From Bacteroidales bacterium (GTDB taxonomy: Bacteria > Bacteroidota > Bacteroidia > Bacteroidales > F082), in assembly GCA_017561025.1 (NCBI GenBank), contig JAFZDU010000030.1, positions 1 through 53,279 of the forward strand: a stretch of 53,279 bases of DNA. The letters are read 5' to 3'. The notes under the pieces are model-generated. The model had not been told where the DNA came from and ran no database searches. It saw only the letters and a program-made list of their open reading frames with translations. A program made the translations under genes and the position numbers. This document shows positions 8,443-44,425 of this stretch, in pieces (the stretch's first letter is position 1; every line of letters begins with the position of its first letter).

Positions 8443-8820
8443 ATGAGAATAATTCTAGTTTTTATATTATTAGCCTTCGGCTTTAATAAGACAACAGTCA
8501 ACGGACAACAGACTTCGTGCGCGGTGCCTGAGCCTGTCGAAGGCACAATGAGCGGACAACATATTTCATGCACGGTGCCTGAGCCTGTCGAAGGCATAAC
8601 GTTCGGCGCTTCGACAAGCTCAGCGACCTCGTTCCCACGGACTGTTGACCGTTGTCCGTTGTCTGTTGACTATTACGAATCCCAAATTCGTAAAGCAGAC
8701 TCCTTATATAAAAACTATCTCCCTCAATATAATTTCGATGAAGTAAAAGCCGCGATGGAGTTCTTTGATTCAATTAGGGATTCAGGAATTCAGGGTTTGA
8801 ATTTTGGAGTTTTGAAATAG
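8443..8820 (+). pseudogene. truncated 5' copy of the TPR/HTH regulator at 38430
   Basis: The 125-residue product begins MRIILVFILLAFGF, matching MRIIVVIILLAFGF of the 38430 gene. It continues with the same translated repeats (VPEPVEG twice, then STSSATSFPRTVD). It shares ADSLYKNYLPQYNFDEVKAAM with only small changes, and then leaves the homology after FFDSIRD. The remaining residues come from short intergenic repeats, and the frame stops at 8820. No TPR, membrane helix or HTH is left. I treat it as a gene fragment, although a signal-peptide-bearing product could still be made from the promoter box at 8430. Confidence 0.7.
8523..8672. repeat. palindromic repeat cluster inside the truncated regulator
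   Basis: Two direct copies of CCTGAGCCTGTCGAAGGC occur at 8524-8546 and 8575-8597. A related inverted unit GCTTCGACAAGCTCAGCGAC lies at 8608-8628. The run GTTGACCGTTGTCCGTTG follows at 8638-8672. The same four blocks in the same order occur at 38511-38710. Confidence 0.85.
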
Positions 8821-8883
8821 TCCCGATAGGGACGACAGTTCCTAGGCAGGTATGGAGAGCGGAGCTCGGAATGCCTGCTATAA

Positions 8884-11877: not shown

Positions 11878-13527
11878 ATGAAAAGATTATTACTTTTAGC
11901 ATTGGCATTGTTATTCGGAAACAATGTCTTTTCCCAAGAATGGGAAGCCGTTTATTATAGCGATGAAATAATTAATGGATGCGACTATCTAGAAGCGATG
12001 GAATTATCAAACGGCTATGTGTTGGTTTCTTCATTAAACTACCCATTGTATGTGTTTGATTTTCCAGTAGATTTATCGAGCGTAGTACATTCAACTCAAC
12101 CTAAATTGTCTCTAATTTCACCTGACGGAGAAGAATTATATAGTAATGTTTATTTTAAGTATGGTCTATGCGAAACTACCACGCCGTACCTTTTTGAAAA
12201 AAATGGAGAAATGTATTTTCTTACTTCATATAGTCCAGATCACGATATTGATTCAGAAAATTATTTTAAAAATTATGACAATATTCCTACTGAGTCAATA
12301 ATTGGTCTTTATAAATTGGACGAAATGCTCAATGTGACAGAAGCGTATGAGCACACTTATCCCATTGATACTTTTGAAATAAGAAATGAAGCTTGGTATC
12401 ACTTCCGTAATGTATATTGCGGATACATACACATATATTCCGCTTTTGAAGATGATGGATATATAACAGGTGTTTATTCAAAAATGGAAAGTGCATCGCA
12501 TGAAGAAAGACATGACTCTGTTTTCTTATTCAAGATGGATTTTAATGGTAATTTTTTACTCAGAAAAGGATATAAGGCTGGATGTGGAACTAGTATTATG
12601 GCTTGCAACCGTCAGCAAATGGTAAAGAATGAGAACGGATATGCAATTTACTATAGGGGATGCCCAGACTATCACGGTATAGTGGAATATTATGATAACG
12701 ACTTTAACTATATAGCTACACGGGATGTTTTACTACCTGGAGATTCTAGTCCGCTACTGACTAGTGGCATGTTAGATATATTCTCTGTAATGCGTAGTAA
12801 TCATAATACTACTTATGTTTGTTCAGATTTTGAAGGTCCTGGAGTTAATCCTAATGACGAAATAAGATTATATGAAATAGACGATGATTTAAATAATTCT
12901 ACAGAATTGTTACCAGTGCTCAATTACATAGAAAGAAGTACTTCTGAACATGACCGTACATCTATGCGTTCTATTGATATGACAAAAGATGGAGGCATCT
13001 ATTTTACATACACATTAAATTGTGGCTTTTGGAATAATGAAGATTCATGGATAGTGATAGAAAGACTGGATTCTGATTTTGATACAATAGCAACGTTTTT
13101 TTATAACGAGAATGATGTATATAGTGAAGCTACTTGTATTACAACAACAAAAGATGATGGACTTTTGCTTGTTTCATATTCATATGATATTAATAATCAT
13201 GACAAGAGATGGTCAAAAGTCTCTAAATTCCCTGCGTCAGCCTTTGGAATTGACAACATCGAAGAAGCACACGCTCATAATCTTCATCTTGCTGTCGCTT
13301 ACCCAAATCCTGGCGGAGAGGTGATGAATATCAGAACTGGTTTGAGAAATGCTGTTTTAAGTGTTTATGATTTACAAGGAAGAAAAATCCATGAAGAAGA
13401 AATAACAGACGATGTCACTTCTGTAGATGCTTCTAAATGGCAAAGTGGAACTTATGTTTGGAAATTAGGAATGAGGAATGAGGAATTAGGAATGAAGGAA
13501 ATGGAGAGCGGAAAATGGGTTAAGTAG
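11878..13527 (+). CDS. exported protein with T9SS type A sorting domain (paralogue 1)
   Basis: This 549-residue protein has a signal peptide MKRLLLLALALLFGNNVFSQ. Its body is built of strand-turn units such as TKDGGIYFTYTL and TKDDGLLLVSYSY, suggesting a beta-propeller-like fold. The last 95 residues (from ASAFGIDNIEEAHAH) are a sorting domain with AYPNPGGEVMNIRTG and SVYDLQGRKIHEEE. Just before the terminal MESGKWVK the chain reads KLGMRNEELGMKE, which is the translation of an intergenic GGAATGAGGAATTAGG repeat. The body differs from the next gene, while the sorting domain is nearly the same. It should be secreted and surface-attached; function unknown. Confidence 0.8.
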   Translation: MKRLLLLALALLFGNNVFSQEWEAVYYSDEIINGCDYLEAMELSNGYVLVSSLNYPLYVFDFPVDLSSVVHSTQPKLSLISPDGEELYSNVYFKYGLCETTTPYLFEKNGEMYFLTSYSPDHDIDSENYFKNYDNIPTESIIGLYKLDEMLNVTEAYEHTYPIDTFEIRNEAWYHFRNVYCGYIHIYSAFEDDGYITGVYSKMESASHEERHDSVFLFKMDFNGNFLLRKGYKAGCGTSIMACNRQQMVKNENGYAIYYRGCPDYHGIVEYYDNDFNYIATRDVLLPGDSSPLLTSGMLDIFSVMRSNHNTTYVCSDFEGPGVNPNDEIRLYEIDDDLNNSTELLPVLNYIERSTSEHDRTSMRSIDMTKDGGIYFTYTLNCGFWNNEDSWIVIERLDSDFDTIATFFYNENDVYSEATCITTTKDDGLLLVSYSYDINNHDKRWSKVSKFPASAFGIDNIEEAHAHNLHLAVAYPNPGGEVMNIRTGLRNAVLSVYDLQGRKIHEEEITDDVTSVDASKWQSGTYVWKLGMRNEELGMKEMESGKWVK

Positions 13528-13572
13528 GAATTGAGGAATTGAGGAACTGAGGAACTAAGGATCTAAGGAACT
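13468..13572. repeat. GGAATTAGGAATGAGG-type repeat crossing the stop of the 11878 gene
   Basis: The run begins inside codons for KLGMRNEELGMKE. It is interrupted by the short conserved tail coding ESGKWVK, and resumes after the stop as GGAATTGAGGAACTGAGGAA units. Confidence 0.75.
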
Positions 13573-13582
13573 GAGGAGAGTC

Positions 13583-13610
13583 GGTCGCTGAGCTTGTCGA
13601 AGTGCCGACC
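13583..13610. repeat. GTCGCTGAGCTTGTCGAAG palindromic repeat
   Basis: This is a single inverted-orientation member of the TTCGACAAGCTCAGCGAC family, with short GGTC/GACC ends forming a stem. It lies between the two T9SS paralogues. Confidence 0.75.
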
Positions 13611-13660: not shown

Positions 13661-15232
13661 ATGAAAAATATATTTTTTACAATATTACTATTATCGTCAT
13701 TAACGATAATGTCCCAAACTCCATTTATTGAACCATCATGGGATTTGATTCCAAATAATAATACTGACAAAGAAGGTTTGATGCCATTTAGTATAATAGA
13801 AACCAATGATGAGTGTTACATAGTTTCCTTAATTCATAGACCTAATGATTCAGATGCTAAAGATAGTGCCATAGAAAGTAGTAACCTTGCAAAAATAGTT
13901 AAATTTGATAATAATGGCAATATGTTGCATGAAATAGAATTGCAATTCAACAATAGCTACTATGTCCAAGATGTAAAACTTTATGTTTGGAACGATACAA
14001 TAAATGTTTTTAGCCAACTTGTTACAGTAAAAGGAGACCATTTTGTGTTGATGCATTCTTATCTTTTTGATGATTTAAGTATGAGTGAACAAAACGAAAT
14101 ATGGAGAAAGGAATTTGATGATGGATTAGGATGGCGTAGTATTATGAGTACACATCCATTAATTGATGAGAATGGTTGCAGAACATTTCATTTTGAATAT
14201 TATACACCTATGTCATTTGACTATACTGCAATATTTTTAAAATTGGATACAAATTTTAATGTTATTTCGGAATATGAATATGATGTATTTAATGATTTAA
14301 ATAATGCAATATCTTTGCCTAACCCATTGATGTACAATGTAGATTCTACACAATACTATTATGTTTCATTCAGTGCGAATTCTCCATATTATTATTTTAT
14401 GAATGTTCTTGATATGGATTTTAATTTGGTGGAACAGATACCACTTGAATCGAATCCTGCCGCAGACTTGCTAGGTTTTGGTGGATATTGGTGTCAGAAT
14501 CCATATGATGGTAAAACATATGCTTTTGGATTGGTTACTCATCCAAATATCAAAAGCGAAATAGGTGCATTTAAAATAGATGTTGATAGTGAAAGCGTTG
14601 TTTTTAAAAGATTATCACATACATCAAACGAAATTAAAAACAGTATCTTACTTGATGAAAATCTATGTTTTTTGCCTGATGGTAAAATTATAGGATGTGC
14701 CATTTATGATGTTACGGATTTTTTGGGATATAAGCAAGATGCTTATTATGCGTATATTCCTCTGTTTGACACAAATATGAAAAAGATATCAGAATGGTAT
14801 TATACATTAGGTTATGAATACAATATGTTTTTGTATGACATACATGCCACCCAAGACAATGGTGTTATATTTCTAGGATATATTCGTTATATGCAAGACA
14901 ATGAAATCTTCAATGAACCATATATCGTCAAATTCCCGGCATCAGCCTTTGATCCCGACAACATCGAAGAAGCCCACGCTCACGGTTTACATCTCGCTGT
15001 CGCTTATCCAAATCCAGGTGGCGATATAATGAATATAAGAACTGGGTTGAGAAATGCCGTTTTAAGTGTTTATGATTTACAAGGAAGAAAGATCCATGAG
15101 CAGGAAATAACAGATGACATTACTTCGGTTGATGCTTCGGGTTGGCAAAGTGGAACCTATATTTGGAAATTAGGAATGAGGAATGAGGAATTAGGAATTA
15201 AAGAAGTAGAGTGCGGAAAATGGGTGAAATAG
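13661..15232 (+). CDS. exported protein with T9SS type A sorting domain (paralogue 2)
   Basis: This 523-residue protein has a signal peptide (MKNIFFTILLLSSLTIMSQ). Its body has turn-rich units (GNMLHEIEL, DNGVIFLGYIRY) like those of the preceding gene but with low residue identity. The sorting domain from PASAFDPDNIEEAHAH onward is nearly identical to that of paralogue 1, including RTGLRNAVLSVYDLQGRKIH. The C-terminus again contains KLGMRNEELGIKE followed by VECGKWVK. No promoter box was found in the 133-base gap, so it may be read from the upstream gene. It is likely a T9SS cargo exposed on the surface; its substrate or ligand is not visible. Confidence 0.8.
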   Translation: MKNIFFTILLLSSLTIMSQTPFIEPSWDLIPNNNTDKEGLMPFSIIETNDECYIVSLIHRPNDSDAKDSAIESSNLAKIVKFDNNGNMLHEIELQFNNSYYVQDVKLYVWNDTINVFSQLVTVKGDHFVLMHSYLFDDLSMSEQNEIWRKEFDDGLGWRSIMSTHPLIDENGCRTFHFEYYTPMSFDYTAIFLKLDTNFNVISEYEYDVFNDLNNAISLPNPLMYNVDSTQYYYVSFSANSPYYYFMNVLDMDFNLVEQIPLESNPAADLLGFGGYWCQNPYDGKTYAFGLVTHPNIKSEIGAFKIDVDSESVVFKRLSHTSNEIKNSILLDENLCFLPDGKIIGCAIYDVTDFLGYKQDAYYAYIPLFDTNMKKISEWYYTLGYEYNMFLYDIHATQDNGVIFLGYIRYMQDNEIFNEPYIVKFPASAFDPDNIEEAHAHGLHLAVAYPNPGGDIMNIRTGLRNAVLSVYDLQGRKIHEQEITDDITSVDASGWQSGTYIWKLGMRNEELGIKEVECGKWVK

Positions 15233-15323
15233 GATCTGAGGAACTGAGGATTTAAGGATCTGAGGAGTTCAGGGTATCAGGGTATCAGGAGTTCATGAGG
15301 ATAATTAGTGATATTTCACGTAG

Positions 15324-15428: not shown

Positions 15429-15506
15429 CGCGCTATGCGCTTCACCGCCTGCCAAGTCAAGTCTCTCGCAAAGGCGCAAAGTATCGCAAAGTAGTTCTCT
15501 GTGTTG

Positions 15507-15554
15507 CTCTGCGTCTTTGCGAGAAAGGAAAACACTTCGACAGGCTCAGTGACT
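15507..15554. repeat. CTCTGCGTCTTTGCGA element joined to a TTCGACAGGCTCAG unit
   Basis: The 16-base core at 15507-15522 is found again inside the coding region at 39184-39199. The unit at 15534-15554 belongs to the palindromic family seen at 8608 and 38646. Confidence 0.7.
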
Positions 15555-15592
15555 TGGTTCAAAGCTCGCGGCTCAGAGTTAGCAGCCCCTCT

Positions 15593-15675
15593 GCGTTAGG
15601 GATTGGAGCGGCATCCTTTTGAAGCGCAGCGGAAAAAGATATAGCGGAAAGCCCGACGGCGGAGCCGGAACGCCC
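15593..15675. repeat. AGCGGCATCCTTTTGAAG structured repeat
   Basis: GGAGCGGCATCC and the later ATAGCGGAAAGCCCG form part of a long, GC-richer intergenic element of a kind I know from many Bacteroidetes genomes. It stands out from the AT-rich surroundings. No frame is preserved. Confidence 0.55.
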
Positions 15676-15680
15676 TGATA

Positions 15681-15770
15681 AAGACAACAGTCAACGGACA
15701 ACAGCTATCGTGTACGGTGCCTGAGCCTGTCGAAGGCACAACGCTCGGCGCTTCGACAGGCTCAGCGACC
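15681..15770. repeat. palindromic repeat cluster (intergenic version)
   Basis: ACAACAGTCAACGGACAACA (from 15683), the CCTGAGCCTGTCGAAGGC unit (15717-15739) and GCTTCGACAGGCTCAGCGAC (15750-15770) appear in the same order as in the coding copies at 8489 and 38480. Here they lie outside any gene. Confidence 0.8.
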
Positions 15771-15837
15771 GAATCCAAAAAAAACTCCTAATTCCTAACT
15801 AAAAAAACTTTAGCCTTTAGCCTTTAGCCTTTTTTCA

Positions 15838-35295: not shown

Positions 35296-36474
35296 GTGGA
35301 AAATACTTTTACTTTAGTTGCAAAAACATTACCAGGCTTTGAAGAGCTCCTGGCTGAAGAATTAGCTGCATTAGGTGCAGAGAATATCAATGTGTTATAT
35401 CGTGCTGTAAGTTTTGATGCCGACAAGGCTTTGATGTATAAGGCGAACTATTGTCTTCGTACAGCATTGAGAATCTTGAAGCCAGTCATGACTTTCGTGG
35501 CTCGTAACGAGTTGATGTTATACAAGAAGATTTTTGAGATCAAGTGGCACGAGATTTTTGGCATTGAAGAGACTTTCGCCATCGACGCTGTTGTAAGCGG
35601 AAATTATTTCACACACTCGCAATATGCTGCTCTTAAGGTGAAGGATGCCATCGCTGATGAGTTCAGACAGAAATACGGCGCACGTCCTTCTGTTGACACA
35701 GAGAACCCTGATTTGAGAATCAACCTTCATATAGAAAATGAAAAGGTCACTCTTTCATTCGACAGCTCTGGCGATTCATTGCATAAGAGAGGCTATCGTA
35801 AGGCAGTTGACAAGGCTCCTATGAACGAGGTGCTCGCTGCCGGACTTATCAAGTTGACAGGATGGAAGGGCGACAAGAACTTCGTCGACTGCATGTGCGG
35901 CTCTGCAACAATTCCTATCGAGGCAGCAATGTTGGCGATGAATATACCTGCAGGTTATTTCAGAGAAAACTACGGTTTCATGAAATGGCACGACTTCGAT
36001 GAGAAATTATGGAAAGAGATAAGACAGGCCGCTGACGATGAAATATGCGACTGCGACTACGAAATCATGGCTTCTGACCATTCAGCTAAAGCAGTACAAA
36101 TAGCCAAGTCTAACATACAAGGCGCTCATCTTTCACACGACATCACTCTCCTTCAACAGGATATGTTCGAGATGACACCTCCAGAAGCTCCTGGTATCTT
36201 GCTTATCAACCCTCCTTATGGCGAACGTCTCGAAGAAAAAGATATCGTAAACCTTTATAAGAGCATCGGCAATACCTTGAAACGTAACTTCAAAGGCTAT
36301 GAGGCATGGGTCATCAGCAGCAACATAGAAGTGCTGAAACTCATAGGACTTAAACCATCGAAGAAGATTGAGGTTTATAACGGTTCTTTAGACTGCCGTT
36401 TCTATAAGTTCGAAATCTTTGACGGCTCATATAAAGATATGAAAATTAAGAAAGCAGAAAATAATATTGAATAA
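35296..36474 (+). CDS. THUMP-domain class I SAM-dependent RNA methyltransferase (RlmL N-terminal type)
   Basis: The 392-residue protein starts at GTG; no in-frame ATG lies upstream before the promoter box. The N-terminal ferredoxin-like and THUMP domains span about 1-160, with FTLVAKTLPGFEELLAEELA at the start. The SAM-binding fold includes DCMCGSATIPIEAAM at 198-212 and the target-binding NPPYGERLEE at 305-314. The family methylates guanine N2 in 23S rRNA (G2445 in E. coli RlmL). The E. coli enzyme is fused to a second methyltransferase, while this one is the short, single form. It is followed after two bases by the GH16-like lipoprotein gene, an unexpected partner that may share only the transcript. 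Confidence 0.92.
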   Translation: MENTFTLVAKTLPGFEELLAEELAALGAENINVLYRAVSFDADKALMYKANYCLRTALRILKPVMTFVARNELMLYKKIFEIKWHEIFGIEETFAIDAVVSGNYFTHSQYAALKVKDAIADEFRQKYGARPSVDTENPDLRINLHIENEKVTLSFDSSGDSLHKRGYRKAVDKAPMNEVLAAGLIKLTGWKGDKNFVDCMCGSATIPIEAAMLAMNIPAGYFRENYGFMKWHDFDEKLWKEIRQAADDEICDCDYEIMASDHSAKAVQIAKSNIQGAHLSHDITLLQQDMFEMTPPEAPGILLINPPYGERLEEKDIVNLYKSIGNTLKRNFKGYEAWVISSNIEVLKLIGLKPSKKIEVYNGSLDCRFYKFEIFDGSYKDMKIKKAENNIE

Positions 36475-36476
36475 CT

Positions 36477-38420
36477 ATGAAACGAATCCTGTTTTTTTTG
36501 ATTTGTCTGTCGTTGTTTTCTTGTAAAGATGACGTCAATTTCAATCCGATGTCTAACTTCCCGGACGAGAAGATTGTCGCTCTTGATATGGATTTGCGTA
36601 ATGTCGTTAACGAAGGCATCGTAATTCCGTCAAACAGTCAATGTGATGAGCCAGGATTCGCTTTTACTTTCAACGCTGAGAAGGGTCAGTATTACAAGAT
36701 TTATTATCAGAATGAGTCATATAAGTTTGGTGATAACGACTCTTTGAGCAATGAGAATTTTTACGGAAGTTGGGAAGACGTCAGCGTCGGTTTCAAGAAA
36801 GTTGAAGAAAACGGCATGGTGACAGATTATTTCCGCATTGTCGGCAATCCTCGTGATGAGAAGAAATATTACGGAGCCGATTTGACAAGAAACAAATTCA
36901 ATCAGGAGTCTGTCGATAAGGTGATAGAAGCCATTACTAACAACCGTGACTGGTATGAGTCGGTCAAGGCTAAGGCTGTCAATAATAACTATTCTTTGGA
37001 AAGACAACTTTATCTTGATGCCATTTGGATCATCAACGATAATAAAAACAGAGGCGACGTCAACAATAGATTCAAGCGCAACCCTCGCGTGGGTGAATAT
37101 TCTTTCATGCTCGTCGTTTGTGATGAAGAAGCCTTGAACCAAATCCCTGATTATATCAAGAACATAAGCCTTACAGATGAAAACGGTGCTTACGTAAATC
37201 CATATTCTTATTTTTCAAAGAATAAAAACAAGGGTATAAAGGTCATTGTAGGCGACAGACGTTTGAAGACGCGTGCTGTAATAAGTCCTGAATATGGAGT
37301 GTTCTTGGATGAGACTGTGGTCAAGACCAACGACTTCGCTGTAAATAATGCGAATCCTTTGTGCAGCGATTCAGATGAGATGTACTCCAACGCTTTGTAT
37401 AAGCAGTTCTTGAGCGATGTGAGCAGGCAGTATACATTAAGAAACATACCGCTTATCAAAGATGTAGTTTCCGACGAAGATCCATATACTATGAAGGAAT
37501 ATGAAGAAGCAAGGACTAAATACGACAGCTCTCAGCTTCAATACAATTATCCTGTTGTGTCGGAATATCTCGGAACGACTGTGAAGCTGAATGAGGATAA
37601 CAGCATTTCATTGATAAATCCAGGCAATGATGATTATGATGATTTGCATAAGGAGTCTACCGGTATTATTACTAGAGTGGGTTTTACATACGGCAAGTTC
37701 CGCGGCAAGATAAAGTTCCCTGTCATGCTTAACGAAGAAAACATCTGGAATGGATTGACTTACGCTTTCTGGCTGATATATCAAGACGAACATAAGTGGA
37801 ACAATAGAAGGACAAGCACAGCGGGAGGCGGCTATATAGACAAGAACGACAGCTCTGAAAATCCTGTCAGACATCACGACTATCATTATTCTGAAATAGA
37901 TATTGAGATAGTGAAAGCATCGAGGTATTGGCCTAGATATTATTATGAAGACCATAGCAATCATTACTCGGAAAATCCTAAGAATAATAACGAGATAATG
38001 TATTGCTGTACCAATTGGGATTTGGCAACCAAAGAGCCTGTTAATTTCTCGGCTGGATTAAATAAGATACCATACGGCAACAACACTTACGAAGCGATGC
38101 GATGGACTGATTTATACAAGGCCTTGACGATAAAGTCGCCAATCAGCAATGAGGCCTTTAAAGAAGACTATTATTATTACGAGATAGAATGGCGTCCTAA
38201 TGAGATAATATGGCGCATCGGACCATCGGAAGACAAGATGCAAGTTGTAGGATATATGAATGACGAATACACGGCGATACCTAACAACCAGATGCTGTGC
38301 ATAGTGACACAGGAATATCATTATTCCGAATGGTGGCCTCCAATAGTCTTTGAACAAGGACTGATTCCATACAACAAGAGCGACATAGAAGGAAGAGTAT
38401 ACGAGATTATCGTGGAGTGA
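36477..38420 (+). CDS. GH16-like lipoprotein
   Basis: This 647-residue protein has an SPII signal (ILFFLICLSLFSC). The N-terminal half is unassigned except for a helical module at about 149-187 (ITNNRDWYESVKAKAV, SLERQLYLDAIWII). The C-terminal half resembles GH16 laminarinase-type domains. YGKFRGKIKFP (405-415) corresponds to the usual YGyfEvRaK strand. EIDIE (473-477) fits the catalytic E-[I]-D-x-E site, and YYEIEWRPNEIIWRI matches the F..Y.ieW.p..I.wyvDG strand. It probably acts on a beta-1,3- or beta-1,4-linked glucan or galactan at the surface. The His/Tyr-rich flank HHDYHYS before the motif is unusual. No SusC/D pair adjoins it. Confidence 0.75.
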   Translation: MKRILFFLICLSLFSCKDDVNFNPMSNFPDEKIVALDMDLRNVVNEGIVIPSNSQCDEPGFAFTFNAEKGQYYKIYYQNESYKFGDNDSLSNENFYGSWEDVSVGFKKVEENGMVTDYFRIVGNPRDEKKYYGADLTRNKFNQESVDKVIEAITNNRDWYESVKAKAVNNNYSLERQLYLDAIWIINDNKNRGDVNNRFKRNPRVGEYSFMLVVCDEEALNQIPDYIKNISLTDENGAYVNPYSYFSKNKNKGIKVIVGDRRLKTRAVISPEYGVFLDETVVKTNDFAVNNANPLCSDSDEMYSNALYKQFLSDVSRQYTLRNIPLIKDVVSDEDPYTMKEYEEARTKYDSSQLQYNYPVVSEYLGTTVKLNEDNSISLINPGNDDYDDLHKESTGIITRVGFTYGKFRGKIKFPVMLNEENIWNGLTYAFWLIYQDEHKWNNRRTSTAGGGYIDKNDSSENPVRHHDYHYSEIDIEIVKASRYWPRYYYEDHSNHYSENPKNNNEIMYCCTNWDLATKEPVNFSAGLNKIPYGNNTYEAMRWTDLYKALTIKSPISNEAFKEDYYYYEIEWRPNEIIWRIGPSEDKMQVVGYMNDEYTAIPNNQMLCIVTQEYHYSEWWPPIVFEQGLIPYNKSDIEGRVYEIIVE

Positions 38421-38429
38421 TTGGAGGGT

Positions 38430-40553
38430 ATGAGAATAATTGTAGTTATTATATTATTAGCCTTCGGCTTTTGGCCTTCTGCGGTCAACGGACAACAGAT
38501 TTCATGTACGGTGCCTGAGCCTGTCGAAGGCACAACGAGTGGACAACAGACTTCGTGTACGGTGCCTGAGCCTGTCGAAGGCACAACGAGCGGACAACAT
38601 ATTTCATGCGCGATGCCTGAGCCTGTCGAAGGCACAGCTTCCGGCGCTTCGACAAGCTCAGCGACCTCGTTCCCACGGACTGTTGACGGTTGTCCGTTGT
38701 CTGTTGACTATTATGAAAAACAGATTCATATTGCAGATTCCTTATATAAAAACTACCTCCCTCAATATAATTTCGACGAAGTAAAAGCCGCGATGAAGTT
38801 CTTTGATAGCCTTCGGCTATCTAAGACAACAGACTTCTTCAACAGGATTTTTCCAAACAGAAAACAAAAAGACTTGTGTACGGTGCCTGAGCCTGTCGAA
38901 GGCACAACGAGCGGCGCTTCGACAAGCTCAGCGAGCTCGTTTCCACGGACTGTTGACCGTTGTCCGTTGTCTGTTGACTTCAATTGCGCTAAAGCGCATT
39001 ATTACCACGCCGTGGGTCTCACGGAACGCGATGACATTGTAGGTGCTTGCGAGCATTATCTCATCGCCTTGGAGATTATGGAAGAAGATGACCTTATTAA
39101 AAGTCTCAAAGACACAAAGACACAAAGACGCAAAGTTTTGAGGAAACAAAGAAACGATGAAAAAGCACTCTGCGACTCTGCGACTCTGCGTCTTTGCGAC
39201 TATAACAAAGAGGATTACGAAAAGATAAGGTTTGTTGCCCTGATATATACACGTCTTGGAAGATTGTTCCTTAATGAAAATTATTGCGATCTCGCAATCA
39301 TAAAATACAGAAAAACCTTGGAATATGTAGAAATTATTGATGAAAAGCCTTTTAAGGCAAATGTCCTAAAAGAGTTAGGCAATTCATATCATCTTTCATC
39401 AGAACCAGATAGTGCCTTGTATTATTATAATAAATCCTTAAGATATAATTCAGCTCTGCCAAACAAATTGGATGTTGAGAAAAGTATTGCTCAGATATTG
39501 TTTGATAAAGGTGAAAAAGATACGGCATATTTATTAATAAAGAATAACCTGAATATAATAGATAATGAAAATGTTAGATATTCATACTATGCTACTTTAG
39601 GAAGAATGTGTTATGAAGATAATATGTATGATTCGGCAATATATTATTTAGAAAAAAGTATTGAGAGTTCTATATATCATACGAAAGCGACATCTGCCAT
39701 GCAATTGTCAGCAATTTTTGACTCATTAGGTAATTATGAAAAAAAATCCTATTATGATACGTTTGTTTCAAAGATATCTGTTGTTAATTTTAATAAAGGT
39801 GTAGAAAGCACGCAACTTCATACATTATACATTGATTATTCTAACAGAAAGGCAGAAAGAGAAAGATTAAAATTACGAAGCAACAATATTACAGCTAATT
39901 TATTCATCTTTATGCTAATGATATTCATATTTTTAAAATTCCAAAATAAACATAAGAAAATATCCTCTATATTAAATGACAAAAAATTATTGATAACTCA
40001 AATTGTTGATGAAATAAAACTGAAAGAAAAACATATTGGCGATTTGGAATTTAAACAAAAGCTAGCAGATGGTAAAATAAGACAAAAGAATAATGAAATA
40101 AAAGAAAGAGATGAATTGTTGATAAAATATCGTTGTGAATTATCAGAACTGAAGAATAAATTGGAAAGGTTAAAGTCTGAATGTTCCGATATAAATAAGT
40201 TTCTTCAGTCGGAAGTTTGTTCAAGTATTTTAAACCATATAGACAATTTGTCTAAAAAGAATATCGATTCTTCAGAACTTGAAAAATTGACTCAGGAACA
40301 ATTTATATTACTATCAAGATCTGCAAATATCTATCTAAACAATGTCATAGATGACATTTCAAACAAATATCCAAAATTAAAAAATGACGATTTATACTAT
40401 ATATGTTTAGTCATTTTAAACCTTAGCGACAAGCAAATATCTTCTTTATTCGGAGTTACTTACAATACAATAAAGGTAAGGAAACGAAAAATTTGTTCTA
40501 TATTGGGCATTAATAATGACGATTTACATGGTTTTTTGATAAACATAGTGTAG
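38430..40553 (+). CDS. TPR/HTH membrane regulator with coding-embedded repeats
   Basis: The ATG at 38430 follows GGAGGG and gives 707 residues with a signal peptide (MRIIVVIILLAFGF). Residues about 17-94, 149-184 and 226-259 are translated repeats: PEPVEG four times, STSSATSFPRTVDGCPLSVD twice with small changes, and TKTQRRK...CDSATLRLCD. Between and after them lie helical TPR units (about 185-480, for example YYYNKSLRYN and SAIYYLEKSI). A membrane helix follows (ANLFIFMLMIFIFLKF), then a coiled coil and a LuxR-like HTH with LSDKQISSLFGVTYNTIKVR. It starts 10 bases after the GH16-like gene, so they are probably co-transcribed. A truncated copy is at 8443. Confidence 0.8.
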   Translation: MRIIVVIILLAFGFWPSAVNGQQISCTVPEPVEGTTSGQQTSCTVPEPVEGTTSGQHISCAMPEPVEGTASGASTSSATSFPRTVDGCPLSVDYYEKQIHIADSLYKNYLPQYNFDEVKAAMKFFDSLRLSKTTDFFNRIFPNRKQKDLCTVPEPVEGTTSGASTSSASSFPRTVDRCPLSVDFNCAKAHYYHAVGLTERDDIVGACEHYLIALEIMEEDDLIKSLKDTKTQRRKVLRKQRNDEKALCDSATLRLCDYNKEDYEKIRFVALIYTRLGRLFLNENYCDLAIIKYRKTLEYVEIIDEKPFKANVLKELGNSYHLSSEPDSALYYYNKSLRYNSALPNKLDVEKSIAQILFDKGEKDTAYLLIKNNLNIIDNENVRYSYYATLGRMCYEDNMYDSAIYYLEKSIESSIYHTKATSAMQLSAIFDSLGNYEKKSYYDTFVSKISVVNFNKGVESTQLHTLYIDYSNRKAERERLKLRSNNITANLFIFMLMIFIFLKFQNKHKKISSILNDKKLLITQIVDEIKLKEKHIGDLEFKQKLADGKIRQKNNEIKERDELLIKYRCELSELKNKLERLKSECSDINKFLQSEVCSSILNHIDNLSKKNIDSSELEKLTQEQFILLSRSANIYLNNVIDDISNKYPKLKNDDLYYICLVILNLSDKQISSLFGVTYNTIKVRKRKICSILGINNDDLHGFLINIV
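38481..38710. repeat. coding repeat block 1 in the 38430 gene
   Basis: Three copies of the CCTGAGCCTGTCGAAGGC unit lie at 38511, 38562 and 38613. GTCAACGGACAACAG-type spacers separate them. The inverted unit GCTTCGACAAGCTCAGCGAC is at 38646, and GTTGACGGTTGTCCGTTG lies at 38676-38710. All copies are read in the same frame. Confidence 0.9.
38806..38835. repeat. GATAGCCTTCGGCTATC palindrome in the 38430 gene
   Basis: The AGCCTTCGGCT core is self-complementary and also occurs in the signal-peptide codons at 38457 and 8470. Here it is read as SLRLSKT. Confidence 0.7.
38880..38980. repeat. coding repeat block 2 in the 38430 gene
   Basis: CCTGAGCCTGTCGAAGGC unit at 38883-38905, inverted unit at 38916-38936, and GTTGACCGTTGTCCGTTG at 38946-38980, in the same order and frame as block 1. 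Confidence 0.9.
39105..39205. repeat. coding repeat block 3 (CTCTGCGTCTTTGCGA type)
   Basis: AAAGACACAAAGACACAAAG is followed by CTCTGCGACTCTGCGACTCT and CTCTGCGTCTTTGCGA at 39184-39199. The last 16 bases are identical to an intergenic copy at 15507-15522. The two halves are roughly inverted to each other. Confidence 0.8.
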
Positions 40554-40628
40554 TTAATAAGTAGAATATCAAAATCTTAACTGATTTTATATTACTTTTT
40601 TTCTCTTGACAAACAACAACTTTCAGCA

Positions 40629-40636
40629 TACTTTTG
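40629..40636 (+). promoter_or_regulatory. -7 promoter box of the DUF3244 gene
   Basis: TACTTTTG overlaps a TTG frame opening at 40634, supporting the later ATG at 40652. Confidence 0.55.
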
Positions 40637-40651
40637 AAAAAAATTAAATGT

Positions 40652-41020
40652 ATGAAGAAAGTTTTTTTAGCAGTCATGCTTTTTCAAATCGGCTTTATAG
40701 CAGAAGCAAAGCAAACGACAATCAACGACAAGGTGGATGTATGTGCGACACACTCTAACATATACAACGGCACAGAATCCCGTTCCCAATCCATCTCGGC
40801 TGACATTACCGGTCACACTTTAACTATTACCTTTAACGATAATGTGGGAATTGCTCATATTATTATTAAGGATTCTAACGGTGTTTATATCGACAGAGAA
40901 AATGTTTTCTCAACACCAGATTACGCTACATTCTTTATTAATGATGCTGGCTACTACAGAATGGACATCACATTAAGCAATGGCGAGCAGTATTATGGAT
41001 ATTTCAGAGTTGAAAATTGA
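40652..41020 (+). CDS. small secreted DUF3244-like protein
   Basis: The ATG at 40652 gives 122 residues with signal peptide MKKVFLAVMLFQIGFIAEA. The mature part is beta-rich: ISADITGHTLTITFND, AHIIIKDSNGVYI, and GYYRMDITLSNGEQYYGYFRV. This resembles the DUF3244 fold, a small Ig-like domain common among Bacteroidales exported proteins. No catalytic residues are evident. The stop codon lies in a TTGAAAATTGAAAACTGAAAG repeat, of the sort seen also at 8963-8980, so the extreme C-terminus may have been altered by the repeat. Confidence 0.65.
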   Translation: MKKVFLAVMLFQIGFIAEAKQTTINDKVDVCATHSNIYNGTESRSQSISADITGHTLTITFNDNVGIAHIIIKDSNGVYIDRENVFSTPDYATFFINDAGYYRMDITLSNGEQYYGYFRVEN

Positions 41021-41054
41021 AAACTGAAAGTTATGAGGATTAGCATTTTTGCAA

Positions 41055-41213
41055 TAGGGAAAAACAAGTTCATAGAATACGTCTCTCGATAAATCGTCTG
41101 ATTGACGAATTTATCGGGAGATTTTTTTAAGAAATAAATCAAACTACAGATGTGGAAAAATGGGTTCTATCCATTGATGTAGGAAAATTGATAATAAATA
41201 GAACCCACCTATA
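41055..41213 (+). repeat. 159-bp two-hairpin dispersed repeat, copy 2
   Basis: It matches 9163-9321 with about three changes, two of them in opposite arms of the first stem. The second hairpin arms TGGGTTCTAT (41161-41170) and ATAGAACCCA (41198-41207) are identical to copy 1. It ends 28 bases before the next ATG. Confidence 0.9.
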
Positions 41214-41241
41214 ATATTATTACAATTTAAAATGATTAGCC

Positions 41242-42738
41242 ATGAATAAAATATTGTTAAAAAGAGTATTATTGTTGATAGCTGCAATTGCAATGTCATT
41301 AACAGTAAAATCACAGTCTGTAGTCAAGTATGAAAGATTTGTTGATGATGGTCATGCCTGGCATAATTGTACAAGAGCACTTGAAACATCTGATGGAAAT
41401 ATCATTATGATGGAAGAATGCATCGATGCGACAACAGATTTTTCTGAAGTTTATACAGAGTCCGTCAACCTACTTAAAATAAGTCCGCAGGGAATGCTTA
41501 TTGATTCAGTAAAAGTCAATTTTCAGGGTACAAACATGAATTGCCCGTTTTTCATACTGTCAACCGAGGCAAACAGCAATGTGATGGGTGGTCTGTACTT
41601 AAATGAAAACAATGAACTGCGTTATGCAGCAATCTTCTTTGACGACCTTCTTACCATCACTAACAGCATAGATGTTGTCTTGCCAGTCGAAGGGTTCACG
41701 ACTTCTTACAAATCAATTGTTGACTGCAATAATGATTTGATATTCATGTCAAAGAAAAATGACACCAACGACACTTATATTTTTATCAAGATGGATATCT
41801 ATGGCGAAGTCAAGACTGTTAAATATTCGACATCAGAAAACTACAAGGACCTTTATCTTACTGAAAAGTCACTTTATGTCCACAGCAGTGATCCTTTGGA
41901 ATATGGCTGTTACTTTTTCAATGGAGAAGGCATCACAACAATTAAAATAGTCATTTTGGATAAAAATTTTGAAATCTTGGATTTTGTTGATGTCAATAAA
42001 TTTATAGATGCTAACCATAGTTATGTTTTTAATTGTGCACAATCGGAGATTCTGCTTTCTGAAGGAGGAAATATACTTATGAGTTCCATTGTAAGAGATA
42101 GTGGAGGCTGGAGTGATGAATTGTCAGAATATATTCAGTTAACAAAATTTAATGATAATTATGAGATTGTGGACTATGTAAGGATAGCTTCAAGGCTTGT
42201 GTATGGCGACGAAGGTGAGTTTTATGTAAATTCGACCAAATCTATTTTAGAAGACAGCTATGGTAACGTTTATCTGATTTGGATTGACACCGATGGCGAA
42301 TATATGGTGAGTTTTATAAATAAGAAAATGGAGTTAGTTTGGGAATGTCCTTTAGATCAGACAGGTGCTGATATATCTTTGTTGTATGACGCATTTATTA
42401 TGGACGACAACAAGCTAGTGGTTTATGGCGATTATGTGAAATTTGACGTAGGCTATTTTGGAGTATGCCACATACTCACTAATAACAGTGATATAACATC
42501 TGTATCCGAAAATCCTAATTCACTCAGTTCTTCCAGCATCTATCCTAATCCAGCAAGTGACTTCGTCATGGTAGAGGCAGAAAATGAAACAGAGGTAAAG
42601 ATCTATTCCGTCAGCGGACAAATAGTTTTGCGTCAAAACGTCAGCGAAGGAACAAGCACTATCGATGTTTCAAGACTCAACAGCGGAATCTATTTCATCG
42701 ATGTTGAAGGCGTGATGAATAAGGTTGTTGTGAGATAG
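41242..42738 (+). CDS. exported protein with T9SS type A sorting domain
   Basis: This 498-residue protein has signal peptide MNKILLKRVLLLIAAIAMSL. The body has repeated strand-turn elements (YGNVYLIWIDTDGEYMVSF, GGLYLNENNELRYAAIFF) similar in style to the 11878 and 13661 proteins, again propeller-like. The C-terminal about 75 residues form a normal sorting domain: IYPNPASDFVMVE, EVKIYSVSGQIVLRQ, LNSGIYFIDVEG. Unlike the other two it lacks the repeat-derived KLGMRNEEL stretch. No clear promoter box was found, and the 159-bp repeat is its immediate upstream region. Function unknown. Confidence 0.78.
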   Translation: MNKILLKRVLLLIAAIAMSLTVKSQSVVKYERFVDDGHAWHNCTRALETSDGNIIMMEECIDATTDFSEVYTESVNLLKISPQGMLIDSVKVNFQGTNMNCPFFILSTEANSNVMGGLYLNENNELRYAAIFFDDLLTITNSIDVVLPVEGFTTSYKSIVDCNNDLIFMSKKNDTNDTYIFIKMDIYGEVKTVKYSTSENYKDLYLTEKSLYVHSSDPLEYGCYFFNGEGITTIKIVILDKNFEILDFVDVNKFIDANHSYVFNCAQSEILLSEGGNILMSSIVRDSGGWSDELSEYIQLTKFNDNYEIVDYVRIASRLVYGDEGEFYVNSTKSILEDSYGNVYLIWIDTDGEYMVSFINKKMELVWECPLDQTGADISLLYDAFIMDDNKLVVYGDYVKFDVGYFGVCHILTNNSDITSVSENPNSLSSSSIYPNPASDFVMVEAENETEVKIYSVSGQIVLRQNVSEGTSTIDVSRLNSGIYFIDVEGVMNKVVVR

Positions 42739-42782
42739 AATGAATTCAGTAATTCAGGGTTATATTAGATAATCTAACGTAG

Positions 42783-42808
42783 AGCCGCACCGCCGTGCGG
42801 CTTTTTTA
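42783..42808 (+). terminator. GC-rich terminator between convergent genes
   Basis: AGCCGCAC and GTGCGGCT around CGCC, then six T. It is a second copy of the element at 15324-15347 with the same CGTAG upstream flank. Confidence 0.8.
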
Positions 42809-44425
42809 TTCTTGCTCAATAACCCATTTCGCATCTTCATAGATGACAGTCTCAAAGTCTTTGTTTTTCTCTTTAGCCTTTTGTTCGAGGAATAATATCA
42901 TTTCTTTGTCGCCTCTCCATTTCTTGACGAGTTCGTTGACTTTAACCTCAAAAATCATTTCTTCTGTGACATCGGTAAAGTCGCGGAGCAGTGTTTTGTT
43001 GTTTAAGACGTTGTCGGCTTCGATTTTGTATATCTCCTCTAAAGATTTGCCTTGTATGTTGGCTTGAATCTTAAGTGCTTCTACCCAGTCCTTGTCTTCT
43101 TCAATCTCGTTGGCAATCTGAGCTATTGCTATCTCGTGGCTGTTTCTTATAACAGGATTTTCTACATTGCTGATTCCTTTGATGAGATAGGGTTCCTTGG
43201 TGATTTTATATCTTGCATCATCTATGGATATGTTGAGGCTGTCGGCTATGCGTATTGTCTCAGCTTGCATAAGGCTGTCGGATACACACAATGCGAGAAG
43301 AGCTTCTTCCACGAATTTGTATGTTGCCTTATACCATTGATGTGCGGAGGTGTAGAAAACGACATAGTCGGCACGAAGTATGCTTCTTAATAGGTTTATC
43401 TCGTTTTTATAAAGATGCACTCTGTCGAATCCTTTGAAAACATCTTCGTTATAGAACAATATTTCCACGTCGTCCATGATTTCATTCCATGGAAGCTGTT
43501 CGTTAAGCCCCCAGATGAAGGAGTCGCCTACGAACAAGACTTTAGGTTTCTTGCAATTCTCGTCACATTCTATCTCGACGTTTAACTTATAATCTTCGCT
43601 TTTGTTTATGATAGGAAACAAAAGGTTCAAGGAAGCTTCGTCGTTGTGACACTTGACATAATAAGGTTCAGGCTTGCCGTACTTTATCTTAGGTATGCCG
43701 AAGTCGTTGAGGCTGTTCATGAATCTGAAGAGAGAGTCGTATCCGTAGACCGCAGTATATTGCCAGTGGTTGTCTGTCTTAGGAAATACAGTATATTCCA
43801 AGGTGTCTTTCATGCTTCTGAACCAGCTGGTCATCTCTATGTTAGGAAAGCCGGCCTCTGCCAATGCATTGGAATAATAGTCCAAGGAGTTGATAGTTGT
43901 AGTGTCTTTATCTCTTCTTGGAAGATATTCTGAGTAGACATATACCTTGCTTGGCGCCATGAACGAGAGGAATTCAATGTCGTATGATTTAAGCACATTT
44001 CTCAGCTGGCACATCATCTCGACGTTTTTGTCGAAATAATCCTTAGCTTTCTCTGCGGTACTGAATGCGCTATATTGTTCGGTGCCATAATAATCTTTGA
44101 CAGCTCCTTCGTAAAACAGCCAGTTGTCTTTTCCTGGGGTGATGAAGTGTATGTAGGTCTTTTTGAAGAAAGCCCAGATATATTGGTTGTAGATGCGTAT
44201 TAAGTTCTCTCTGAATCCGAAGTTTTCCGACACGTATTTCTCCAGCTGTATCTGGTATTTTCCGTCTGAATAAGATTGGTATGTCAATTCTGGAAGTTCA
44301 GTCTTCTCTGTGAAACCGGTGAGAGGCTTGACTTTGAATATGTCAAATTGTTCTTGAATTAATGGCAGCCATAGTATTGCCATTAATATTGAGAATAGAA
44401 TGATATGTGTTTTAGTGTTTTTCAT
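42806..44425 (-). CDS. DHHW/AlgX-like SGNH acetyltransferase partner
   Basis: This 539-residue protein has an N-terminal signal anchor (HIILFSILMAILWLPLI). The AlgX/DHHW-like core has PGKDNWLFYEG (97-107), FLSFMAPSKVYVYSEYLP (152-169), the active-site motif TDNHW at 217-221 and GDS at 300-302. These residues form the SGNH-type triad that moves acetyl groups onto polysaccharide in the periplasm. From about 438 to the end are two copies of a helical module, EDKDWVEALKIQANIQGKSL and EMILFLEQKAKEKNKDFE, also found in the GH16-like protein. Its ATG overlaps the MBOAT stop by one base (TAATG), so the two are translationally coupled. Confidence 0.87.
   Translation of the reverse strand: MKNTKTHIILFSILMAILWLPLIQEQFDIFKVKPLTGFTEKTELPELTYQSYSDGKYQIQLEKYVSENFGFRENLIRIYNQYIWAFFKKTYIHFITPGKDNWLFYEGAVKDYYGTEQYSAFSTAEKAKDYFDKNVEMMCQLRNVLKSYDIEFLSFMAPSKVYVYSEYLPRRDKDTTTINSLDYYSNALAEAGFPNIEMTSWFRSMKDTLEYTVFPKTDNHWQYTAVYGYDSLFRFMNSLNDFGIPKIKYGKPEPYYVKCHNDEASLNLLFPIINKSEDYKLNVEIECDENCKKPKVLFVGDSFIWGLNEQLPWNEIMDDVEILFYNEDVFKGFDRVHLYKNEINLLRSILRADYVVFYTSAHQWYKATYKFVEEALLALCVSDSLMQAETIRIADSLNISIDDARYKITKEPYLIKGISNVENPVIRNSHEIAIAQIANEIEEDKDWVEALKIQANIQGKSLEEIYKIEADNVLNNKTLLRDFTDVTEEMIFEVKVNELVKKWRGDKEMILFLEQKAKEKNKDFETVIYEDAKWVIEQE

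Follow-up and report, generated by a model that had tools for sequence, protein, structure and literature searches.

Coding palindromes are best known from Rickettsia, and the locus described here recalls them in another phylum. The window, a 53,279-nt stretch of Bacteroidales DNA, contains a regulator gene (38430..40553, + strand) within which the first-pass annotation had reported dispersed palindromic repeats of three families, translated in frame. From the ATG at 38430 to the stop codon ending at 40553, the frame is indeed open through all repeats and encodes 707 aa, confirming that one open frame runs through three repeat families.

Architecture of the window gene

The predicted regulator consists of a leader, block A, a helix segment, block B, TPRs, a membrane helix, and an HTH-like C-terminus. 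The proposed continuation of the frame into a TPR is backed by Pfam (TPR_12 at residues 270–338, the sole model above cut-off in the 707-aa regulator); the membrane helix and HTH-like end, like the leader, were assigned by eye, without a profile. Block A follows the leader and block B is located between two helix segments. Both are built of heptads and of units of the first repeat family, named here PAL (core CTGAGCYTGTCGAAG, often as inverted pairs), and a third site, C, contains octamers. The gene exposes four exact direct PAL cores (38517, 38568, 38619, and 38889) and two exact inverted cores (38647 and 38917), matching the four direct copies and two inverted relatives originally described. 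The accompanying statement that all copies share one frame is accurate for the direct copies, all four of which are read in the PEPVEG phase, and both inverted copies are read in the STSSA phase.

The first three direct copies stand in 51-nt (17-codon) tandem units, one PAL unit each, that a direct-repeat search placed at 38490..38642 (+) in block A. PAL pair 1 (38609..38669, +; cores 38619+ and 38647−, 28 nt apart) reads PEPVEG...STSSAT and has a DNA fold of −15 kcal/mol (z −2.0). GTTGTCC-type heptads at 38682..38708 (+) read TVDGCPLSVD, and an inverted heptad unit (38484..38496, −) forms the end of the leader (AVNGQQ). Block B (38862..38979, +) combines PAL pair 2 (cores 38889+ and 38917−; −14.1 kcal/mol, z −1.6) with heptads at 38952–38978 (+). 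Both coding pairs of the window fold only slightly better than shuffles, with 8 and 15 of 200 shuffles equally good. Site C is formed by octamer repeats at 39104..39135 (−), its inverted part, and 39168..39199 (+), the latter including an exact CTCTGCGTCTTTGCGA at 39184–39199. A 99-nt direct repeat is common to blocks A and B, its copies being 92% identical and 270 nt (90 codons) apart.

All three families are strongly over-represented in the window. The PAL 13-mer has 14 matches with up to 2 mismatches versus 0.70 expected (maximum over 100 shuffles, 3), the heptad GTTGTCCGTTGTC has 14 versus 0.95 (shuffle maximum 4), and the octamer repeat CTCTGCGTCTTTGCGA has 7 with up to 3 mismatches versus 0.37 (shuffle maximum 2), with exact copies at 39184 and 15507. 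The description of the repeats as palindromic fits PAL only; the heptad and octamer families are, by eye, short tandem repeats of 7–8 bp. Dispersed 7-bp tandem repeats like GTTGTCC are known from cyanobacteria as STRR heptamers.

The PAL element

The source genome (G000) measures 2.79 Mb in 126 contigs and is 84% complete. Its exact copies of the 13-mer GAGCYTGTCGAAG number 125 (62 + 63) against 0 for the reversed control, and all of them are contained in 56 genomic stretches around cores together with the window. The 15-mer CTGAGCYTGTCGAAG fits 121 of the 125 exact cores, and GTTGWCNGTTGTCCGTTG is present in 42 copies (control 0). Inverted PAL neighbours occur 44 times, with the direct unit first in 39 and a core spacing of 28 nt in 25, and 40 units stand alone or face a degenerate partner.

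Among the 125 units, which comprise 75 distinct sequences, covariation is seen at two stem pairs. Pair one is Watson-Crick in 111 of 125 units (C-G 53, A-T 31, G-C 27) versus a shuffle mean of 42.6 and a maximum of 57 in 2000 shuffles; pair two is Watson-Crick in 118 of 125 (C-G 63, G-C 55) versus a mean of 59.5 and a maximum of 81. The next pair outwards shows no Watson-Crick excess (68 versus a shuffle mean of 68.9). Only C/T was left free in the 13-base search pattern, so invariance there is by choice, and the outer stem bases were unselected. The resulting hairpin has a stem of 4–6 bp and a loop of 11 nt. PAL thereby displays the short hairpin, the compensatory stem changes, and the tens to hundreds of copies that characterize REPs.

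In 36 genomes from the genus, the number of cores varies between 0 and 158, and the reversed control never exceeds 2. The 15-mer is found in 99 of 394 Bacteroidota genomes and reaches 204 copies, against a single control match in the same table. Among named records, the Lentimicrobiaceae MAG SIG105 comes closest. Six plasmid records, from Sphingobium, Sphingomonas, Variovorax, Microbacterium, and Persicobacter, match weakly (E 2e-4 to 0.4). As for a comparison with MITEs, the ends of PAL read GGT...ACC; no clean target-site duplication was found at tilS or nnrE/D, and there, as at L081, L083, L091, L092, L094, and L096, the flanks are repeats themselves or too diverged.

PAL inside unrelated genes

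The occurrence of repeats inside genes extends beyond the regulator. Splitting PAL cores at gaps >120 nt yields 76 clusters in the source genome, of which 25 (with 52 of the 125 copies) fall within ORFs of 150 aa or longer. In thirteen of the 25, the frame continues for 40 aa or more on either side; these belong to 11 unrelated genes plus two paralogues of the regulator. Because the 25 ORFs were selected as open, the counts conceal any loss of frame elsewhere. PAL is inserted in frame within unrelated conserved genes, as are the Rickettsia palindromic elements (RPEs). The interrupted genes encode, by Pfam, a rhamnulokinase, a MutS-like protein, a GreA-like protein (six copies), NnrE/D, GH97, GH13, a helicase, a Dpp-type ABC ATPase, and a U32 protein; a subtilase and TilS were assigned by eye.

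A solved-structure search, run for four interrupted proteins, places the inserts between conserved segments. Specifically, residues 173–212 of NnrE/D lie opposite a single residue of its solved relative TM0922 (2ax3), residues 120–158 of the Dpp-type ABC ATPase opposite seven residues of DppD (8wd9), and residues 218–247 of GH97 opposite four residues of 5hq4, and the RhaB block leaves 14 residues unpartnered against FucK (4c23). The helicase has Pfam domains flanking its PAL insert on both sides. Inserts in the MutS-like, GreA-like, GH13, subtilase, and U32 proteins were placed by ORF only, and PAL inserts near an ORF start (L064, the 206-aa ORF of L068, L091, and L097/L117) may precede the true start. 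A comparison of 13 PAL-bearing G000 proteins with a 0.93 Mb sample of the congener G009 and with loci of other congeners gave a single clear orthologue, that of the L091 protein (93.6%), and its DNA is without PAL.

Two side observations, both made by eye, concern these loci. The ORF at L065 1461–2621 encodes a GreA-like domain, a six-copy PAL array, and then a NUDIX-like C-terminal part with no profile match. At L064 2012–2180, L091 2068–2200, and L255 11609–11760, TTTTGCCTTT/TTTTGTC repeats code for the hydrophobic part of what look like lipoprotein leaders (VFCLLSL).

The reading frames used are uneven. Outside the regulator family, the PEPVEG phase is used in 12 of 14 direct-unit clusters (equal-odds P 0.0065) and the STSSA phase in 13 of 15 inverted-unit clusters (equal-odds P 0.00003), two counts that are interdependent through the fixed pair spacing; one phase, which contains TGA, is barred from ORFs by construction. 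Over all 39 PAL pairs, coding and spacer, on both strands, openness of the two frames stands at 73:53, and weighting by openness brings the PEPVEG preference to P 0.028. It falls to 10 of 12 (P 0.064) after dropping L117, a copy of L097, and L086, a family leader. Random frame use in other genes had been named beforehand as evidence against the coding interpretation; the use observed is not of that kind, but the preference is suggestive only.

Filled and empty sites in tilS and nnrE/D

Absence of the insert from relatives, another feature of RPE-like insertion, is clean at tilS, nnrE/D, and the regulator only. Homologue alignments, the check proposed with the original observation, reveal clean loop insertions in both enzymes. 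At tilS site 2, the PAL pair is present in G000 and G009 and missing in G064 and G027, a net difference of +57 nt. This gene is termed essential in another bacterium (PMC10128029).

The tilS comparison covers the 30 best-scoring loci of 56 matching genomes among 60 searched, G000 included. A repeat motif occurs somewhere in 17 of the 30 genes (PAL in 9, CGTC-like repeats in 8, octamers in 3, heptads in 2, and one other, several in some), as scored with mismatches allowed and without a shuffled control. This count may be low because several unscored linkers in L120–L149 still look repeat-derived by eye, such as those with CHFERSEAESRNP-type peptides in L126 and L134. In all nine PAL-bearing genes, PAL occupies the linker before QLLFEW in the PEPVEG or STSSA phase; L147 has an extra loose match at residue 368, in a different phase and outside the linker. 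The unit lies 25–35 residues before QLLFEW in G000 and G009 and 11–12 residues before it in the other seven species. On a tree of the 30 genes, built with insert-bearing columns removed, the PAL state requires 5 changes and the CGTC-like repeat of the linker 6, gains and losses being pooled, 6 of 27 forks being poorly supported, and L124 being scored as without the CGTC-like repeat, its copy lying elsewhere. Restricting the analysis to labelled rows gives 3 changes each versus a shuffled mean of 4.3, not fewer than in 15% of shuffles. Repeats resembling CGTCATTGCGAG, a label of our own reading, adjoin PAL in the tilS genes of two congeners, L127 and L137.

Motif inserts are rare in nnrE/D (3 of 30). 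The G000 insert is a composite of AGAAACTC units (by eye), heptads, and PAL; it is absent in G009, and three other near congeners have different repeat-like inserts at the same place. Among sites with two separate G009 flanks, a G009 ORF runs across only nnrE/D and one regulator-paralogue site, the others being spacers or single-alignment spans.

The regulator family

An alignment of 17 regulator relatives, in which one SIG105 row repeats the G027 protein and two truncated G000 copies and SIG105_60 are incomplete, contains PAL in block A of 10 members and lacks it in 7, with the flanking helices conserved. The seven rows are four from G009 (at contig ends, with leaders cut or missing), two from G064, and one from G076. 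Homologues starting after the repeats would have spoken against translation of block A; both block-less G064 homologues keep the MRILILFILS leader ahead of the repeat position. PAL in block B is confined to G000 (the window gene, C30, and the C63 fragment), and site C holds octamers in some members and TTTTGCC-type repeats in others (by eye).

Six G000 family members, including the window gene and two truncated copies, have leader and block in common, and both recur in a C25 peptidase gene. One truncated paralogue, of 125 aa, is encoded in the window at 8443..8820 (+) and shares the leader and block A of the regulator gene (PAL cores 8530+, 8581+, and 8609−). Duplication of the regulator gene is the likely route by which the block spread among these paralogues, and the number of 51-nt units differs between them in whole codons. 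The C114 paralogue joins the front of block A directly to the tail of block B, with the intervening segment absent, and looks like an in-frame deletion between the two blocks. Recombination between the 99-nt direct repeats of the window gene would produce such a join. The suggestion that the repeats act as a recombination target is supported by this paralogue to that extent, recombination between the 99-nt repeats being its presumed origin. Separately, a 6.8 kb segment (36466–43304) that houses the window gene is missing between matching flanks in G009, and parts of it match elsewhere in that genome.

Origin of the coding repeats

Our preferred reading, to which we assign a probability of about 85%, is that PAL is a REP-like hairpin that has spread in a Lentimicrobiaceae genus and is tolerated in frame in loops and linkers. 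PAL, which is presumably mobile, would have spread through the genus alongside short tandem repeats, landing both between and within genes. A copy that entered a gene would survive if it fell in a loop or linker, kept the frame, and was read in one of the pair's two frames that are mostly free of stops. The favoured frame would yield PEPVEG...STSSAT, a hydrophilic, probably disordered stretch with abundant Pro, Glu, Ser, Thr, and Gly. The window gene would have received one insertion behind the leader and another between two helix segments; its insert would have been multiplied by in-frame 51-nt tandem duplication and then copied to paralogues with the gene, after which similar blocks could act as recombination sites that delete or shuffle coding segments in frame. 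The interpretation given to the locus in the first-pass annotation is supported, including its likeness to Rickettsia palindromic elements, which holds for behaviour.

Alternatively, the frame might be open by accident of composition, with translation of the regulator starting downstream and the repeats being 5′ untranslated DNA. Two of three forward frames are stop-free in block A and likewise in block B, in-frame Met residues exist at 62 (within block A) and 122, and in other species mis-annotation is common for REPs close to an ORF start (PMC3733652). This account is nevertheless improbable given that both block-less G064 copies retain the leader and that conserved protein stands on either side of block B and of the inserts in tilS, nnrE/D, rhaB, the ABC ATPase, and GH97. 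Even less credible is spread by regulator duplication alone, from one founding insertion and without recurrence. It would explain the leader and block common to the six family members and the C25 peptidase gene, but PAL lies well inside the frame of the eleven unrelated genes, tilS units stand at unequal distances from QLLFEW, and the tilS tree needs the repeated changes noted above for both PAL and the CGTC-like repeat. For the genome as a whole, duplication-only spread from one insertion is refuted.

The remaining alternatives concern what keeps PAL and what moves it. Selection for a useful flexible tether in the exported regulator is compatible with the content of P, E, S, T, G, and Q, which reaches 67% in block A and 51% in block B versus 25% in residues 259–707 (site C, at 23%, is not enriched), and with unit numbers that vary by whole codons between paralogues. 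We consider it unlikely, given that the same peptide occurs in enzymes expected to be cytosolic (TilS, NnrE/D, and the helicase) and that homologues without the peptide exist. Mobilisation of PAL as a classical REP by RAYT (Y1 transposase) is a possibility we take more seriously, though still with doubt. Y1 matches occur in 28 of 36 genus genomes, including all 15 with at least 30 PAL cores, and the rank correlation between Y1 and PAL count is 0.46 (P 0.0045, uncorrected for kinship or completeness). Y1 is, however, also present in 6 of the 11 genomes that have 2 PAL cores or fewer, and a PAL-flanked Y1 gene, the arrangement typical of RAYT-associated REPs, was found at none of 30 Y1 loci (the G000 gene plus 29 fetched loci, a subset of all Y1 matches): PAL never comes within 400 bp of the Y1 domain, the nearest units being 625 and 646 bp away. 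The sole Y1 gene of G000, L031 (G000:C42:20647-20988), adjoins another repeat, of a GCAGG...CCTGC type that also occurs near window positions 8850 and 15420 (all by eye).

Relation to known repeat systems

PAL resembles RPEs in being palindromic, present in many copies, and in frame in unrelated genes (PMC10969869, PMC3733652). The comparison is one of behaviour: PAL belongs to another phylum, and a PAL pair measures about 55–60 bp versus about 150 bp for an RPE (PMC10969869). Unlike RPEs, PAL is mixed with heptad and octamer repeats, and one and the same linker is filled by different families depending on the species. Like the intragenic GTAG/CGTC REPs (Di Nocera 2013, PMC3733652), PAL forms short hairpins and inverted dimers that lie mostly in spacers, with a minority in ORFs, and CGTC elements are likewise without a transposase. 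The CGTC stem of 8–9 bp and loop of 4–5 nt (PMC3733652 Table 1) differ from those of PAL, which was found to carry neither the CGTC nor the GTAG tag, the columns before its core reading C-G-G-T-S-N-C-T. As in REPINs and BIMEs, two inverted PAL units at a short, fixed distance make one long hairpin, but no associated Y1 gene was found at the 30 loci examined. PARCEL (PMC2996958) is also a protein-coding palindromic repeat spread between genomes; it is a 25-residue amphipathic tandem domain, whereas PAL encodes a hydrophilic stretch and is mostly dispersed.

REPs and RPEs within ORFs have already been described (PMC3733652, PMC10969869, and PMC6006769), and the kind of element is therefore known. 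What appears new is the PAL family and the group that hosts it, along with its mixing with tandem repeats and the repeated filling of a single linker. The PAL core letters had no match in the literature text searched, which comprised text outside figures and supplements; matches to the peptide strings PEPVEG, PELVEG, LSLSKG, and FDKLR were unrelated by title, and literature on Lentimicrobiaceae or tilS yielded nothing relevant to such repeats.

With dozens of species, between none and well over a hundred cores per genome, and enzyme sites both filled and empty, this Bacteroidota genus makes the process countable: the rate of insert gain, the frame, the loops used, and whether the protein changes. 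More tentatively, dispersed repeat families might be a standing source of coding sequence that refills linkers (tilS), builds parts of signal peptides, and provides in-frame recombination joints (the C114 paralogue and the C25 peptidase sharing the regulator's leader). For annotation, a predicted protein from such a genome that contains PEPVEG or STSSA should be taken to carry a repeat there and not a domain.

Non-coding copies in the window

The repeat copies reported outside genes at 15507–15770 do fall between ORFs. This spacer contains an octamer inverted repeat (15464..15524), a single PAL unit (15535..15549, −), heptads (15683..15702, −), and a PAL pair (15715..15771) that forms a long hairpin (DNA fold −22 kcal/mol, z −5.9). 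Another single non-coding PAL unit lies at 13590..13602 (+). A Flavo-1 RNA (RF01705) occupies 15580–15662 (+) of the same spacer, beside the single PAL unit on the opposite strand. Further Flavo-1 matches were seen at L112 317–391 and L116 1970–2057 among ten loci searched, and several single PAL units have the same flank in common in this context. Finally, a segment of ~340 bp, present in the window at 13225–13561 and 14916–15295, recurs at many G000 and G009 loci with about 83–92% identity and is suspected to represent the 3′ ends of secreted-protein genes.
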